Shown here: positions 14,741-33,753 of the stretch, in pieces
Position numbering within the stretch: the first letter of the stretch is position 1
Layout of the letters: the number at the start of each line of letters is the position of its first letter
Made by a program: the position numbers and the translations under genes
The notes under the pieces: model-generated
The model's database searches: none
Told to the model about the DNA's origin: nothing
Seen by the model: only the letters and a program-made list of their open reading frames with translations
Source: an uncultured Saprospiraceae bacterium
GTDB lineage: Bacteria; Bacteroidota; Bacteroidia; Chitinophagales; Saprospiraceae
Length of the DNA: 44,114 nt
Reading direction: 5' to 3'
Assembly (NCBI GenBank): GCA_937921555.1
Contig: CAKZUV010000132.1
Span: 1-44,114, forward strand

Positions 14741-15511
14741 ATGAAAAAATCCATTGTTAGCTATAATGTAAATGGTATTCGCGCAGCGGTAAAAAAAGGA
14801 TTACTCGACTGGATGAAAGCCGGGCAGTATGATATTGTTTGTCTGCAGGAAACCAAGTGTCAGCCCGATCAGGGCCCCATCGAAGAACTCGAAGAGATGG
14901 GCTATCACCATTGCTGGCACAGCGCTCAGAAAAAGGGTTATAGCAGTGTGGCTACCTTTTCAAAAGTAAAACCAGACCATGTTGTTGCCGGTACCGGAAT
15001 AGAAAAATATGACCTGGAAGGCCGGGTGCTGAGAACTGATTTTGGCGACGTAACGCTGCTGAATTGTTACTTTCCCTCGGGATCAAGTGGCGAAGAAAGA
15101 CAGGGTTTTAAATACGAATTTCTGAATGATTTTTATCCCTGGATTGAGAAACTCAAAAAGGAACGACCCAAGCTAATCGTCGTCGGGGACTATAATATTG
15201 CCCACGAGGATATCGATATTCACAATCCAAAAGGAAACAAGAATTCTTCCGGTTTTCTCCCCGAAGAACGGGCCTGGATGACCAAATGGCTGGACAGTGG
15301 GTTTACCGACAGCTTCCGGTATTTGCATCCCGAAAAACAGGAATTCAGCTGGTGGACCTACCGCTTTAATTGTCGTGCAAAAAATAAAGGCTGGCGGATT
15401 GATTATCAGTGTATCACAAACAATCTGAAAGACCAGTTAAAGACTGCCCGGCAACTGGGGGATGCAGTGCATTCCGATCACTGTCCCGTTTTGATAGAGA
15501 TTGATTTTTAG
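14741..15511 (+). CDS. xth: Exodeoxyribonuclease III (AP endonuclease, ExoA type)
   Basis: This 256-residue base-excision-repair nuclease cuts at abasic sites and degrades DNA 3'-5'. Motifs of the EEP superfamily are in order: SYNVNGIRAAVKKGL near 7-21, LQETKCQ near 35-41 with the metal-binding Glu, GDYNIAHEDIDIHNPK near 148-163 and a C-terminal SDHCPVLIEIDF with the catalytic Asp-His pair. The length is full. It is convergent with the thioredoxin-fold gene, whose stop lies one base beyond its own, so the two 3' ends nearly touch. Confidence 0.94.
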   Translation: MKKSIVSYNVNGIRAAVKKGLLDWMKAGQYDIVCLQETKCQPDQGPIEELEEMGYHHCWHSAQKKGYSSVATFSKVKPDHVVAGTGIEKYDLEGRVLRTDFGDVTLLNCYFPSGSSGEERQGFKYEFLNDFYPWIEKLKKERPKLIVVGDYNIAHEDIDIHNPKGNKNSSGFLPEERAWMTKWLDSGFTDSFRYLHPEKQEFSWWTYRFNCRAKNKGWRIDYQCITNNLKDQLKTARQLGDAVHSDHCPVLIEIDF

Positions 15512-25493: not shown

Positions 25494-26300
25494 CTAGTTC
25501 ATTTCTTTTGACATTTCAAATAAAGGAGCTACGTCTGCCATCAGAATAAATTCGGTACGGCGGTTCATGGCGCGGATTTCTTCCGAATCACTCTCATCCT
25601 GAAATTTAGGCATCGTATCTCCGCGTCCGGCGGCGGTAAGCTGGGTTGGACTTACGCCCATTCTGACGAGTTCGGCTACCACCTGATTAGCGCGGGCGGT
25701 GCTCAGTTCCATGTTGTCACGAAATCTGGCACCTTCCTTCATAGGTACACTATCGGTGTGACCTTCCACGAGGAGTTTTACGCCCGGATTCTGCTTCAGT
25801 TTGGTAGCAAGGTCGTTTAGTACCATCTGACTTTCCTGGTCTACCCTCGTAGAACCGCTGCGAAAGCGAATAGGGGAAGGCGTATTTACGGTCAATCCGT
25901 CACTATCGGCTGTGAGGTCAAACCCACCTTTGCGGTAAGCTTCAAAAGTAGCACTTACTTTTTCCTGTACCATGGTCAATTGTGAATCTCTGGCAGCTAC
26001 GACCGCTTCCATTTCTTCCAGTGATTTTTTAGTATTCATCAGTTCATCATTGGCCGCAGAAATTTCATCGGACAATTCACTGGTTTTTTCTTCCATGATT
26101 TTGCCCAGTTCTTCTTTTTCTGATTCGAGGGTAGCGATATTTTTTTCCAGGTTTCTCACTTTCTCCTGATTTTCTGCCAGTACCTGATCAATAGTCGTTT
26201 TGTCACTCATTAATTGCTCGAATTTCTTTTTAGAAACACAAGACGAAAGAAGGCAGCCGAAGGCCATACACACTAATAGTGATTGGATAAGTTTTCTCAT
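25494..26300 (-). CDS. OmpA-family lipoprotein
   Basis: This is a 268-residue lipoprotein with a signal peptide ending CLLSSC (lipid Cys21). Residues about 30-110 are a Glu/Lys-rich coiled coil (EKEELGKIMEEKTSELSDEI). The C-terminal OmpA domain carries LLVEGHTDSVPMKEGARFRD, LSTARANQVVAEL and NRRTEFIL, the motifs that bind peptidoglycan. The start at 26300 is chosen over an ATG 12 codons upstream because the lipoprotein signal begins there. It probably links the outer membrane to the cell wall through a coiled-coil spacer. The 392-base upstream region carries a DnaA-box cluster. Confidence 0.9.
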   Translation of the reverse strand: MRKLIQSLLVCMAFGCLLSSCVSKKKFEQLMSDKTTIDQVLAENQEKVRNLEKNIATLESEKEELGKIMEEKTSELSDEISAANDELMNTKKSLEEMEAVVAARDSQLTMVQEKVSATFEAYRKGGFDLTADSDGLTVNTPSPIRFRSGSTRVDQESQMVLNDLATKLKQNPGVKLLVEGHTDSVPMKEGARFRDNMELSTARANQVVAELVRMGVSPTQLTAAGRGDTMPKFQDESDSEEIRAMNRRTEFILMADVAPLFEMSKEMN

Positions 26301-26514
26301 TTTAGTTGTTTTAATAAAATCAAATTGTTTACACACGCGAGGTGCATTGATATAATGTAATTACTCTTTTATTGGAAAAGTTAGTGGGACGGATCAGAAT
26401 GTCTTAGTACGGCATTAGGTGGGTTTCAGTACAATAATACTGGATAGCCGTGGTAAAAAAGAAAAAAATTACCAACAGTCAAATGTTTATATTTTAATAA
26501 AACTTAATTCGTTT

Positions 26515-26523
26515 TGTGGAAAA
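26515..26523 (-). promoter_or_regulatory. Single possible DnaA box, opposite orientation
   Basis: The minus strand reads TTTTCCACA, which fits TTWTNCACA. It lies about 100 bases from the three perfect boxes and on the other side of an AT-rich segment. Confidence 0.35.
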
Positions 26524-26625
26524 CTATTTTTTTCACCCTGTTAATAATTATTAAGCAAACAGTCGTAAAAAACATATAATCAGTTAATTACAAAATTTAT
26601 TGTGAAATAAAAATTGGGTTTATAG

Positions 26626-26671
26626 TTATCCACATTTTTAAGTTATCCACATTCTGAAAAAATTATCCACA
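26626..26671 (+). promoter_or_regulatory. Cluster of three perfect DnaA boxes
   Basis: TTATCCACA occurs at 26626-26634, 26643-26651 and 26663-26671, all in the same orientation with start-to-start spacings of 17 and 20 bases. The 190 bases before it (26440-26625) are very AT-rich, like a duplex-unwinding region. The site lies in the non-coding gap 26301-26692 between the yjbQ stop and the OmpA-like start. It is a strong candidate for DnaA binding; whether it is an origin is unproven. Confidence 0.7.
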
Positions 26672-26692
26672 TTCTAAGCTAACAGGAGAATA

Positions 26693-27103
26693 CTAGCTGT
26701 AAACAGAGGCTATCAGCTTACGTCCGCTGGCGTGGTTACGAAATTCACATAAATAAATGCCCTGCCAGGTTCCTAAATTAAGGCGATGATCAGTGATCGG
26801 AATCTGAACGCTGTGGCCAATCAATGCGGCCTTGATGTGGGCAGGCATATCATCGGGCCCTTCCATCGTATGGGTTAGAAAGGGCAGATTTTCCGGTACG
26901 AGTTGATTGAAAATATTTTCAAAGTCTACCCGTACGGAAGGGTCGGCATTTTCATTGATGGTGATGGCCGCAGAAGTATGCTGAATGAACAGGTGGATAA
27001 ATCCGGTTGCTGGCAAAGATCCGAGATGGGTTAGCACTTCGTGTGTGATCAGGTGATAGCCACGGGAATAAGCGGGGAGGTGGATAGTGGTTTGGTTGAC
27101 CAT
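26693..27103 (-). CDS. yjbQ: YjbQ-family protein (secondary thiamine-phosphate synthase-like)
   Basis: This is a 136-residue UPF0047/YjbQ protein. Typical pieces are FIHLFIQHTSAAITINENAD, EGPDDMPAHIKAALIGHSVQ and LNLGTWQGIYLCEFRNHASG. Family members show weak thiamine-phosphate synthase activity, but the natural role is unsettled. The length is full. A G-rich tract on the plus strand begins 7 bases upstream of its start codon. It is separated by 117 bases from the DUF6089 gene. Confidence 0.92.
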   Translation of the reverse strand: MVNQTTIHLPAYSRGYHLITHEVLTHLGSLPATGFIHLFIQHTSAAITINENADPSVRVDFENIFNQLVPENLPFLTHTMEGPDDMPAHIKAALIGHSVQIPITDHRLNLGTWQGIYLCEFRNHASGRKLIASVYS

Positions 27104-28251: not shown

Positions 28252-30498
28252 TTATAAAACTAAAACTACATTCCCTTTGAGGTAGGCTGGATCTTCATTA
28301 AGAAAAGAAACAATCCCCTGATACGTATAGACTCCCGGAGGCATTTGCTTTCCGACATTCTGGTAGCGACCATTCCAGCCAATATTCGGGTCAGTAGATG
28401 AAAAGACCTCTTGTCCCCACCGGTCAAAGATGCGTATCTGAAAAGATTGAATATTATCAAATACCCCTACTCCTACGAATATTTCGTTATTACCATCTCC
28501 ATTCGGGGTAAAAGCATTGGGTAAAAAGTAGGTGGAAGGATTTGTAAAAGATAATATCTGTGAGATAGAATCTACACAATCGTATTGATCCCAGGCAAAT
28601 AAAGTAATAACCAATTTTCCGGTATCAATAATCCGGTAAGTTAAATTTTCACTACTGGTATATAAAACGTCATTGAACAACCAGGATTGACCAACTGCTC
28701 TTTCGGATTTGTTGAACAACTCAATTTCATCAGTGGTAAAATCCAATATTTCCGGCAGGTATTCGAAATTAGCCACTACGGAGGTATCCACCTGAATCCA
28801 GTTTTGGTATATCGTATCAATCCGACAACCCAAGGGAGAAGTAACCGACAGGCTGATGGTATAAGTTCCTGGTACGGTATAAGTATGCTGCGGACTAATC
28901 TCCGTTGACTCAGTTCCATCACCAAAATCCCAACGGGTTTGGTAAGTCGTATCAACTGGTGTGGATAGATTAGTTAACGAAACTTCCAGAGGAGTACAGC
29001 CGGCAAAGCTGCTGGGATCGACAATCAACAAAGCCGGGGCTGGTTGCCAGTTAATCATTTCGATCAGAGAATCCCGGCAACCATATTCGTCTTCAATCTC
29101 TAAAATCACCGGATAGCTTCCCGGAGCGGTATAGCGATAGACTGGATTACTAAAACTGGAAAAATCCTGATTGCCAAAATCCCAGGACCAACTAATAATC
29201 GGTACTTCTTCACTAGAAGAGGCATCTAAAAAACTCACTGCCCCTGCCACACAGGTGTCGTAGCTGTAAGTAAACTCAGCTGTCAAAGCAGTATTTACTC
29301 TTACCAGCACTGGTGCAATTTCATCACATCCATCTTCTGATTCCAGAAATAACTGGCCATGATAATCACCCGACACACCAAAATCAATCGTTGGTTTCCA
29401 TTGATAAAAAGTATCCAGCCCTTCTGCTGTTTCAAAAATCCAGAAATAATTGGTAATGAAATTAGTATCGGTACTTTCATTTGGAATCGTGAGGGTCGTT
29501 TCATTGCAAAGGGGGAAAACTGCGGTATCTCCTTTCATTTCGGGAGCAGGAATCCTTGCTTCTACTTTGGGAATACAATCCACGACGTAAAATTGTGCTT
29601 CCCGGCGCATGATACTTAACAAGGCTCCATCACGATATTCCTCCAAACAAATACCTACCAAAAATCTTCCTTCCTGTTCAGGTATCACCGTTATTTCTCC
29701 CGTCAGAGGATCCATTTCTAAAGTAGAATTCAGCCCCAATGGGCGGGTAGGTGTATATTCCGGAAAATTATAGGAGATTTCTTCGAAGGGCGGACAAATG
29801 GGGACTGCTCCTGTACAAAATTCATCTTCGTGATTATTTCCCAGTAACGGTGCACAAAATTTAAATACTACCTGATCTCCTTCTTCATCCGTCATCGGTT
29901 GCTGAATCACCGTAGAAACTCCTTTGCAGAATATGGTGGGAATTTCATCCACTACAACTGGGCTTTTATTATGGGAAGCAATAGCTTTTCCAGTAACCGT
30001 AAAGTTTACTAACAATCGACGAAAATGATTACTCGAAATCACATCAACATTTGTAAAATCAGCATCTCTACAACAACGATCATCCGCTATTAATATTAAT
30101 TGATCATCTGCAAATTTTGGAATCGTAAACTCAACATTACTTCTGGTACTGAGATGAAACAAATTATAACAAGGAGGATCAGGAATAATCAGACAAGAAT
30201 AATCCGGGTTTTCGACTGGAGTTATTGAATCAAACATCGCCCGAATATTATAGCCTGGATATTCAGAGTAAAAAGTATCTGCCACCGCCATATAGAAATT
30301 GTTGACGGCTGATATTCCACTTTCACAACGTCTTGTATTGTTGGCACGAACCCTGATTATTACTTCTTCTGAATTATCCGGATCATCTCCGATTATTTCA
30401 TATTGACAACTAAAGCCGGTAATGATACTCTGTCCAAATGATACGCTGTATATTTGACAGATAGAAAGAATAGTTACTATTAACATTCTTAGAAACAT
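28252..30498 (-). CDS. T9SS type B-sorted PKD-domain secreted protein
   Basis: The 748-residue exported protein has a signal peptide ending YSVSFGQ. The N-terminal 400 residues are beta-rich with many cysteines (for example CCRDADFTN). Three PKD-type domains follow at about 410-650, with DFGNQDFSSFSNPVYRYTAP and RWDFGDGTESTEISPQHTYT as clear markers. The last 95 residues are a type B sorting domain (gliding-motility C-terminal type): FLPNAFTPNGDGNNEIF, IRIFDRWGQEVFSS and MPPGVYTYQGIV. The type IX machinery should carry it across the outer membrane. It is the last gene of the secreted-protein cluster and is separated from the one before by a hairpin. Confidence 0.92.
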   Translation of the reverse strand: MFLRMLIVTILSICQIYSVSFGQSIITGFSCQYEIIGDDPDNSEEVIIRVRANNTRRCESGISAVNNFYMAVADTFYSEYPGYNIRAMFDSITPVENPDYSCLIIPDPPCYNLFHLSTRSNVEFTIPKFADDQLILIADDRCCRDADFTNVDVISSNHFRRLLVNFTVTGKAIASHNKSPVVVDEIPTIFCKGVSTVIQQPMTDEEGDQVVFKFCAPLLGNNHEDEFCTGAVPICPPFEEISYNFPEYTPTRPLGLNSTLEMDPLTGEITVIPEQEGRFLVGICLEEYRDGALLSIMRREAQFYVVDCIPKVEARIPAPEMKGDTAVFPLCNETTLTIPNESTDTNFITNYFWIFETAEGLDTFYQWKPTIDFGVSGDYHGQLFLESEDGCDEIAPVLVRVNTALTAEFTYSYDTCVAGAVSFLDASSSEEVPIISWSWDFGNQDFSSFSNPVYRYTAPGSYPVILEIEDEYGCRDSLIEMINWQPAPALLIVDPSSFAGCTPLEVSLTNLSTPVDTTYQTRWDFGDGTESTEISPQHTYTVPGTYTISLSVTSPLGCRIDTIYQNWIQVDTSVVANFEYLPEILDFTTDEIELFNKSERAVGQSWLFNDVLYTSSENLTYRIIDTGKLVITLFAWDQYDCVDSISQILSFTNPSTYFLPNAFTPNGDGNNEIFVGVGVFDNIQSFQIRIFDRWGQEVFSSTDPNIGWNGRYQNVGKQMPPGVYTYQGIVSFLNEDPAYLKGNVVLVL

Positions 30499-30515
30499 AG
30501 TACCTTAGAATATGT

Positions 30516-30555
30516 AAAACCACTCATTCAGATATAAATCTCCATGAGTGGTTTT
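30516..30555 (-). terminator. Hairpin between the two T9SS cargo genes
   Basis: A 12-bp stem (AAAACCACTCAT with its complement) encloses a loop that itself pairs AGAT with ATCT. On the minus strand it follows the stop of the type A gene at 30564 and is followed by TTTTACATATT. It lies only 17 bases before the start of the next gene, so it may act as a partial terminator between them. Confidence 0.65.
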
Positions 30556-30563
30556 TTAAATGA

Positions 30564-31562
30564 TTAATGAATAATCGTTTTCGTATAACGATTGCCCTCT
30601 TGATCCAGGATCGTCAAAAAATAAGATCCTTGCGGTAATTCTTTGGTTGTTTCTACTTGAAGATTATTCACCCCTTTAGTCAGTGAATATTCTTTCTCTA
30701 ACAATAACTGGCCTGATAGATTTAATAATTGTACTTGTACCTTCTCTTCTTTAACGCCATTCACCGATATATTAATCAGCGACTCAAAGGGATTCGGAAA
30801 AATGGCAGTTATTGCCAGTTTTGTATTTTCAATTGATACAGGTAATTGACGCTCATTGGACGAGGATCTCTCTTTTGCGGTAATTTTTTCAGGATACTGT
30901 TGTACGAGCCATTCCATTTCACCGGCTTCGTTAAATTTATAAACGAATCGGGCGTCCGTATTAATCTCTTCTTGCGCTGGTATTTCAAAATTAGAGGTGC
31001 CTCCCGTCAATATTTTATTGGTTTCAACAGATATTTTATTTTCCATTTTTTCAGAAAGCGCGTTTAATTGTGCCTCCTTCATGTTTGTCATTCTGGCTAA
31101 ATCTAAAAAGTACCCTGGACTACTTGGTTCTCCTACTGGATCACCAATATAAACTGCTTTTTTCGAGTCAGTACCAGTACCCGGTGCTGGTTCAACAGGT
31201 AAGCTCACAATTGAACACGGACGATTGTTACTACTATTAACACACTTGATAAGTCCTGACCATCCAGCCACACAGTTTTGTCCATTATTGACGATTACTT
31301 CATATTCCCCTGGAGCCATACCAGAGAAAATTTTAAAATTTTCTGGTCTATTAAATTCAAAATCAACGGTTACTCCCTCTTTATCAAGAACACGATAATC
31401 GTAGTTTCCAAAAGTTCCAAATACTTCGATGGTTAAAACGCCATTATTGTTTCCATTGGTGGCGTTTTGCACAGTGACCTCTATACGGGCCTGTGCGAAG
31501 GTGTTTATTGGTATCCAAAGAATGGATAGCATGATTGTTAGTATAATATTTATTTTTTTCAT
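30564..31562 (-). CDS. T9SS type A-sorted secreted protein of unknown function
   Basis: From the ATG at 31562 it has 332 residues. A signal peptide (MKKINIILTIMLSILWIPIN, cleaved after about TFAQ) precedes a small beta domain with VTVQNATNGNNNGVLTIEVF, resembling the short Ig-like insertions seen in Bacteroidota adhesins. A middle helical part follows, and the last 80 residues are a type A sorting domain (FPNPFESLINISVNG, PQGSYFLTILDQEGN). No catalytic motif is visible. The start lies one base after the lipoprotein stop at 31564, so the two are coupled; a longer frame would overlap that gene. It may be switched together with the repeat-bearing protease upstream. Confidence 0.85.
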   Translation of the reverse strand: MKKINIILTIMLSILWIPINTFAQARIEVTVQNATNGNNNGVLTIEVFGTFGNYDYRVLDKEGVTVDFEFNRPENFKIFSGMAPGEYEVIVNNGQNCVAGWSGLIKCVNSSNNRPCSIVSLPVEPAPGTGTDSKKAVYIGDPVGEPSSPGYFLDLARMTNMKEAQLNALSEKMENKISVETNKILTGGTSNFEIPAQEEINTDARFVYKFNEAGEMEWLVQQYPEKITAKERSSSNERQLPVSIENTKLAITAIFPNPFESLINISVNGVKEEKVQVQLLNLSGQLLLEKEYSLTKGVNNLQVETTKELPQGSYFLTILDQEGNRYTKTIIH

Positions 31563-31563
31563 T

Positions 31564-32091
31564 TTATTTGTTTTTGTTATTTTTACTTTTCCTATAATTT
31601 TCATATAATTTATTTTTATAATCTATTAGGTATTCAATATCACCTTGATCGTAAAAAAAATTCATAGAATAATTGAGTCCAAGATGGGTAGGATTCCAAA
31701 CTATGGTGTAATTACCAAAAGATAATTCGTCCATTTTAGCCTCTTTCAGAGCACTTTGAACTATGATAGTCATAAAATCTGAAATTATAATTCTTTCTCC
31801 TGGAGCCACAAAAACACTACTACAAGCAGTTCCGTTAACTCGATTAAGTTGATTTCCATCCTTATCAAATATCATAAATTCAACATCATAATCTCCATAA
31901 GATTTCCCAATTGCTGTATGTTGATCAGTATCATTTATGTAAATCAATTCAAATAAAGCAGTATCTTTAGGATTCAACCTCAAAGTTGTTTTTGAAATTT
32001 TATCAGCGGGCAATTCGAAATTTAGCTTTTTAGTTGTCAAACAACTTGATAAAATCAGTATGATTATAATAAAAATAATTAGATTTTTCAT
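31564..32091 (-). CDS. Small lipoprotein of unknown function
   Basis: This is a 175-residue protein with a very hydrophobic signal (MKNLIIFIIIILILSSC) and lipid Cys17. The rest is beta-rich, with a run NPKDTALFELIYINDTDQHT and a basic tail (YENYRKSKNNKNK). I do not recognise the family. Its position between the protease and the T9SS type A gene (gaps of 19 bases before and 1 base after) places it in the same transcript. The base composition is more AT-rich than most neighbours. Confidence 0.75.
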   Translation of the reverse strand: MKNLIIFIIIILILSSCLTTKKLNFELPADKISKTTLRLNPKDTALFELIYINDTDQHTAIGKSYGDYDVEFMIFDKDGNQLNRVNGTACSSVFVAPGERIIISDFMTIIVQSALKEAKMDELSFGNYTIVWNPTHLGLNYSMNFFYDQGDIEYLIDYKNKLYENYRKSKNNKNK

Positions 32092-32110
32092 TTATCTTGT
32101 TTTTAATTGT

Positions 32111-33753
<1,643 letters not shown>

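Follow-up and report, generated by a model that had tools for sequence, protein, structure and literature searches.

DnaA-modulating loci such as datA and DARS have been worked out in Escherichia coli and its relatives. In Bacillus subtilis, too, intergenic gaps at a distance from oriC contain tight clusters of consensus boxes, which are not known to include an IHF-like site. The E. coli datA locus combines DnaA boxes (five or four, depending on the source) with an IHF site at a critical spacing, and the ATP bound to DnaA is hydrolysed on the IHF-bound DNA; DARS2 has a layout that is in part similar (PMC4585315, PMC8407004).

The window analysed here, 44,114 bp long, is the whole of contig C132 from the 5.44-Mb, 403-contig draft genome (G000) of an uncultured member of the Saprospiraceae. 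A gap of 392 bp between an OmpA-family gene and a UPF0047/YjbQ gene, both on the minus strand, hosts an element in which three direct boxes and one inverted box flank an AT-rich spacer of fixed length (102 bp) with a putative IHF-type bending site. It is tentatively read as an off-origin DnaA assembly site that would modulate DnaA and that is datA/DARS-like in layout, with the following features:

26515-26523, minus strand: inverted DnaA box TTTTCCACA, by sequence match
26524-26625, no strand: AT-rich spacer, 78% A+T, 102 bp without an indel in 6/6 genus genomes
26578-26590, plus strand: IHF-consensus-like site AATCAGTTAATTA (pattern WATCARNNNNTTR), consensus match in 6/6 genomes
26626-26634, plus strand: DnaA box 1, TTATCCACA, exact match
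26643-26651, plus strand: DnaA box 2, TTATCCACA, exact match
26663-26671, plus strand: DnaA box 3, TTATCCACA, exact match
25494-26300, minus strand: OmpA-family gene, 268 aa (PF00691, E 2.4e-18, Pfam), downstream of the element
26693-27103, minus strand: UPF0047 (YjbQ-like) gene, which ends at the element (PF01894, E 3.7e-38, Pfam)

The initial annotation had described three perfect boxes in one orientation, a looser box in the other and an AT-rich region between them, and all three parts of this description were recovered. The three exact copies of TTATCCACA fall within 46 bases, all on the plus strand, and no other exact copy occurs in the window; the looser box is the minus-strand TTTTCCACA, and the 78% A+T applies to the DNA between it and box 1. 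The accompanying claim that such a cluster is unlikely by chance also held: among 20,000 random gap-like sequences (first-order Markov sequences modelled on the gap at 26337-26692), none had two or more exact boxes and 94 had one. Throughout the draft genome (403 contigs), 71 exact boxes were counted versus 31 for the reversed pattern, and no second triple within 46 bases occurs among these 71. Four of 199 family genomes, the window genome being one of the 199, have a triple of exact boxes with no gap above 30. Boxes with one mismatch are not enriched across the whole window (15 seen versus 12.7 expected).

The OmpA-family product comprises a coiled-coil-like stretch and the OmpA domain, with the ATG placed at 26300-26298 from the sequence. 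No hidden small gene was found in 26441-26651, where all six frames contain stops in all six genomes, and the variable sites of this stretch show no 3-base period in the six genomes. A structured RNA was considered and rejected, the RNAalifold consensus having zero pairs changed on both sides on either strand; an Rfam search gave no match above any family's own threshold.

Further along the window, four genes at 28252-33466 (a PKD/CHU_C protein, a Por_Secre_tail protein and two without a Pfam match) sit between a DUF6089 gene and an rsmI-like methylase gene (TP_methylase). The latter two genes are 229-433 bp apart in five relatives versus 5.9 kb here, so approximately 5.5 kb has been gained here or lost in the relatives.

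Conservation of the element was assessed in a gap alignment of the six genus genomes, out of seven and including the window genome, that have the OmpA orthologue; G201, which is 64% complete and in which no such orthologue was found, was left out. The orthologues in the five other genomes, all of them Saprospiraceae metagenome-assembled genomes, are 81-90% identical. In every one of the six genomes exactly 102 bp separate the inverted box from box 1, so that the spacing appears to be constrained, as it is at datA, although the spacer has a mean pairwise identity of just 0.61 (minimum 0.52). Toward the ATG, 40/148 columns of the alignment contain gaps. As a baseline, other gaps of the same loci were aligned in three to six genomes, mostly three (gaps 18-19, 19-20 and 20-21 were compared by length alone), and indel-free windows of 102 bp were seen there only at an identity of at least 0.81; for the element's gap the identity is 0.63 in those three genomes and 0.61 across the six. 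A constant length is not peculiar to the element's gap, because gap 20-21 is also nearly constant (247-252).

The boxes themselves are more variable. The position of the inverted box reads TTTTCCACA in three genomes and TTATCCACA, TTATTCACA and TTCTCCACA in one each. Box 1 is exact in three of the six and TTATCAACA in the other three; box 2 is exact in three, TTATCAACA in one and TTACTAACA in two; box 3 is exact in the window genome alone, TTATTCACA in one and ATATCCACA in four. Taken by genome, G202 and G035 each have two exact boxes at the ompA-side gap, G199 has one (the inverted box) together with TTATCAACA twice and ATATCCACA, and exact boxes are absent from the aligned gap in G137 and G200. 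All four positions are nonetheless recognisable as DnaA-box spellings in 6/6 genomes, with two boxes each in G137 and G200 lying more than one common variant away. The spelling TTATCAACA may still be a weak DnaA site, because it is also present inside the box cluster next to ctaA (at 27946 on contig C80). In G137, G200 and G199, where the element carries TTATCAACA, TTACTAACA and ATATCCACA, the boxes at ctaA and dnaB are exact, which indicates that strong DnaA binding at the element is not strictly selected; the weaker boxes of some relatives argue against an indispensable role.

This pattern bears on a reading in which another regulator or nucleoid protein uses the spacing, and the exact boxes arose late, as a largely incidental product of small duplications. 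Variable boxes at a constant spacing fit that reading, as does the sharing of bases beyond the 9-mer by the three units (TTATCCACATT). The array is, however, matched nowhere else in the genome for number and tightness of boxes, its four positions keep DnaA-box spellings in 6/6 genomes (if more loosely at two boxes each in G137 and G200), and boxes recur together with the IHF-like site at ctaA, so that an incidental origin appears improbable. Beyond the genus, 30 yjbQ loci were examined, out of 153 genomes with a yjbQ match. An OmpA orthologue lies nearby in three, and exact boxes were seen in the window genome and G035, plus one single box at locus L034 (G039). No exact box was found at 13 distant OmpA homologues. 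The element therefore looks confined to the genus, as far as these loci indicate.

Within the spacer, the 13-mer at 26578-26590 fits WATCARNNNNTTR in 6/6 genomes; this is the E. coli IHF consensus as given in PMC8407004. Eight of its nine specified columns are invariant, compared with 21 of the 93 other spacer columns (Fisher p 1.4e-4, an optimistic value because the test was made on a site that had already caught attention). All four N columns vary, and the R column shows A in some genomes and G in the others. Such a column pattern is as would be expected of a binding site, and the conserved spacing together with the IHF-like site makes a genuine DnaA site likelier. Proteins with the HU/IHF fold (PF00216) are encoded in 4/4 genomes searched, with one strong and one weak match in the window genome. 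The genome also encodes a DnaA protein, whose C-terminal helix-turn-helix contains GGRDHSTV, a motif that goes with the usual DnaA-box preference.

Beside ctaA, 7/7 genus genomes have a site of this form exactly 69 bp past the start of a DnaA box; at dnaB, the IHF-like site is not kept in position among the genus genomes. The composite ATCARNNNNTTR-N30-59-TTATCCACA, searched as the motif followed by an exact box 30-59 bp further on, in that order only, has eight matches in the seven genus genomes, and the reversed control has three. Three of the eight are at the window element (G000, G202 and G035), four are approximately 450-520 bp upstream of ctaA on the SRAP side (G199, G200, G035 and G137), and one is elsewhere (G035:C147). 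A longer motif derived from these sites, AATCARNNNNTTAYAAA, is over-represented, matching 97 times versus 22 for its reverse in the seven genomes. It fits the element in four of six genomes, the exceptions being G202 and G035, and its 17 matches in the window genome comprise three on the ctaA contig, one at the element and 13 elsewhere. The sequence elements, their conserved geometry and the presence of the same components at the ctaA origin locus are direct observations.

The cluster lies beside AT-rich DNA in a gap, as is typical of an oriC, and the initial annotation had listed oriC first among its possible roles. GC skew is -0.006 to the left of the site and -0.042 to the right, whereas an origin requires a switch from minus to plus, and 12/13 long ORFs to the right lie on the minus strand, pointing toward the site. 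The observation that the rRNA operon is transcribed toward the site was borne out, the 5S gene and the 23S end being located on the minus strand at 43.3-44.1 kb. The local sequence thus has neither a skew minimum nor a strand switch, and the comparison of boxes with those of related genomes likewise goes against an origin, the orthologous boxes being weakened in 3/6 genus genomes.

The origin was instead located beside ctaA in three complete or nearly complete members of the family (G062, G057 and G127). The genes are named from Pfam matches to COX15-CtaA and SRAP in the window genome and G057, and to CtaA in G062, and from tblastn elsewhere. In G062 (7.5 Mb, one contig), 20 sampled stretches place the minus-to-plus switch in skew somewhere within 1.995-2.35 Mb, and in a contiguous 395-kb stretch the minimum is at 2,349,196, among TTWTNCACA boxes at 2,347,678-2,349,377; the minimum and boxes adjoin ctaA and an SRAP gene. 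The minimum of G057, from a contiguous 800-kb stretch, is at 2,052,643, between ctaA and SRAP and within 15 TTWTNCACA boxes in less than 800 bp; an earlier minimum at 1,821,898, from a partial stretch, was discarded as an edge effect when the longer stretch moved it. In G127 the skew is -0.079 at 340-360 kb and +0.046 at 366-386 kb, so that its sign changes between these two pieces. Close by, 12 boxes lie between ctaA and SRAP at 378,397-379,086; the lowest cumulative skew of the second piece is at its left edge (366,042), 12 kb from the boxes, and does not pin the minimum. In both G062 and G057, dnaA is found where the record begins and not at the skew minimum, and dnaB is 0.7-1.5 Mb from the ctaA origins in the three genomes. 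The distance of yjbQ from these origins is 144 kb in G062, 657 kb in G057 and 2.7 Mb in G127 (circularity assumed). An oriC beside ctaA rather than dnaA in three Saprospiraceae genomes should help origin calling in the family. A ctaA match was found in 15/18 genomes searched, the three without one being G043, G122 and G085.

Within the genus, 7/7 genomes have two or more exact boxes in the gap 3' of ctaA and three in the gap upstream of dnaB. The window contig, the ctaA contig (C80) and the dnaB contig (C365) are separate contigs of the draft; a datA-type element would be expected near oriC. Skew on C80 is +0.006 to the left and +0.014 to the right of the box cluster, with no switch, and its ORFs show no strand switch (15 plus/5 minus on the left, 12 plus/5 minus on the right); the lowest cumulative skew is at 14,985, 13 kb from the contig's own cluster. 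On C365 the gene strand does switch (2 plus/10 minus on the left, 8 plus/5 minus on the right), and the skew is below zero on either side (-0.038, -0.011), its lowest point lying 5 kb off. The genus origin could be at dnaB, because C365 switches strand and C80 does not, or at ctaA, because that locus is orthologous to the skew-placed origins of the relatives. We are less sure which of the two it is; either way, it is very probably not the window site.

The skew, the gene strands, the rRNA direction and the placement of the relatives' origin at ctaA, far from yjbQ, make it very probable that the window site is not oriC. The box cluster next to AT-rich gap DNA and the IHF-like site are what an origin there would have in its favour, and the clusters at ctaA and dnaB are exact in 7/7 genus genomes, the window cluster only partly so. 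A chromosomal oriC at this position is accordingly the least probable reading of all. The site might alternatively be a second origin, either relic or auxiliary, that was copied from the one at ctaA or derived from it; the two have boxes, an IHF-like site and AT-rich DNA in common. The order, orientation and spacing of its boxes are unlike those at ctaA, however, and a skew or strand switch is absent at the site, which leaves this reading highly improbable, if slightly less so than oriC itself.

Several further clusters were noticed at these loci. In G057, ten more TTWTNCACA boxes (L135 4974-5370; 2,044,974-2,045,370) lie approximately 7 kb from the 15-box origin cluster and are possibly part of a bipartite origin or a titration site. 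Triple exact boxes stand directly upstream of dnaB (DnaB by Pfam) in L010 and L012 (G177 and G047, from two other genera), as on C365, and may mark a DnaA-dnaB regulatory link or, in some members of the family, an origin. Another Saprospiraceae draft has an array of 28 exact boxes within 1.4 kb, some of them arranged as a 21-bp repeat (L009 313-1743; G046:C139, approximately 81.6-83.1 kb); neither ctaA nor SRAP was matched in the 20 kb examined there. The DnaB helicase encoded on C365 (L014 7945-9996) contains an intein (Pfam Intein_splicing at residues 417-586; insertion at approximately 408-585), which G202 and G199 are without; in G201, G200 and G035 the insertion at this position is longer.

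Of the other roles proposed initially, DnaA titration and a DnaA-controlled ompA promoter are both retained, and the sequence data do not choose firmly between them. In the main rival to the preferred reading, DnaA and an IHF-type bend would regulate transcription of the OmpA-family gene in time with the replication cycle and leave DnaA itself unaffected; control of ompA and modulation of DnaA are not mutually exclusive. The element lies in the sole gap upstream of the gene and accompanies it in 6/6 genus genomes that have the gene, and the stretch that separates the boxes from the ATG is also conserved (identity of 0.77-0.79). The gap must also hold the promoter of the OmpA gene, so its conservation may be for transcription. 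Within a conserved stretch, TATTATTG at 26432-26439 is one of 11 one-mismatch matches in the gap to the Bacteroidota -7 element. None of the 11 has a -33 TTG at a suitable spacing, however, and the boxes, which precede the start codon by 215-371 bp, are remote from the candidate promoter, whereas the DnaA boxes of E. coli mioC are within or close to the promoter (PMC4585315). Regulation of the gene alone is a possible reading, and a somewhat less probable one than the DnaA assembly site.

If the element is an off-origin DnaA assembly site, an HU/IHF-type protein would bend the spacer, and the bend would bring together the DnaA bound on its two sides. The resulting complex may titrate DnaA or shift its ATP/ADP state, and initiation at the true origin elsewhere could thereby be limited or timed, as with datA and DARS in E. 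coli. The binding of DnaA and of an IHF-type protein, the bending and the effect on DnaA are what we infer from the arrangement. A link to dnaA autoregulation was considered and rejected, there being at most one loose box at each of six dnaA loci (G000, G199, G202, G035, G057 and G062).

Were the element to modulate DnaA, off-origin control of initiation by DnaA and an IHF-type protein would extend more widely than E. coli and its relatives, and the fragment in hand is short and amenable to test. A stronger claim is that this is the first datA/DARS-type switch in Bacteroidota, beside an OmpA-family gene, in which an IHF-type protein would bend a length-locked AT-rich spacer and the DnaA complex formed from its two sides would reset DnaA activity. 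We regard it as doubtful; if it were true, the position of the switch at ompA could link initiation control to envelope gene expression. The parts are of the same kinds as those of the ctaA origin, and off-origin DnaA-box clusters are a type already known.

Like the ctaA-SRAP oriC, the element comprises DnaA boxes and an IHF-like motif, the spacing at ctaA being fixed at 69 bp in the genus; unlike the element, that oriC is at the skew minimum in complete relatives and differs in box order, orientation and spacing. The clusters of B. subtilis resemble it as tight intergenic boxes away from oriC, at unrelated loci. DARS1 and DARS2, the DnaA-reactivating sequences of E. coli, are likewise off-origin clusters, and the likeness is one of layout. 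The DARS core of three DnaA boxes drives nucleotide exchange; the element, for its part, has three boxes in direct order. With datA, the element differs in box number (four here, compared with five or four) and in phylum, and the likeness is again one of layout: both are off-origin and intergenic, with boxes placed around a site that matches the IHF consensus, here by sequence pattern, and at a spacing that is apparently constrained.
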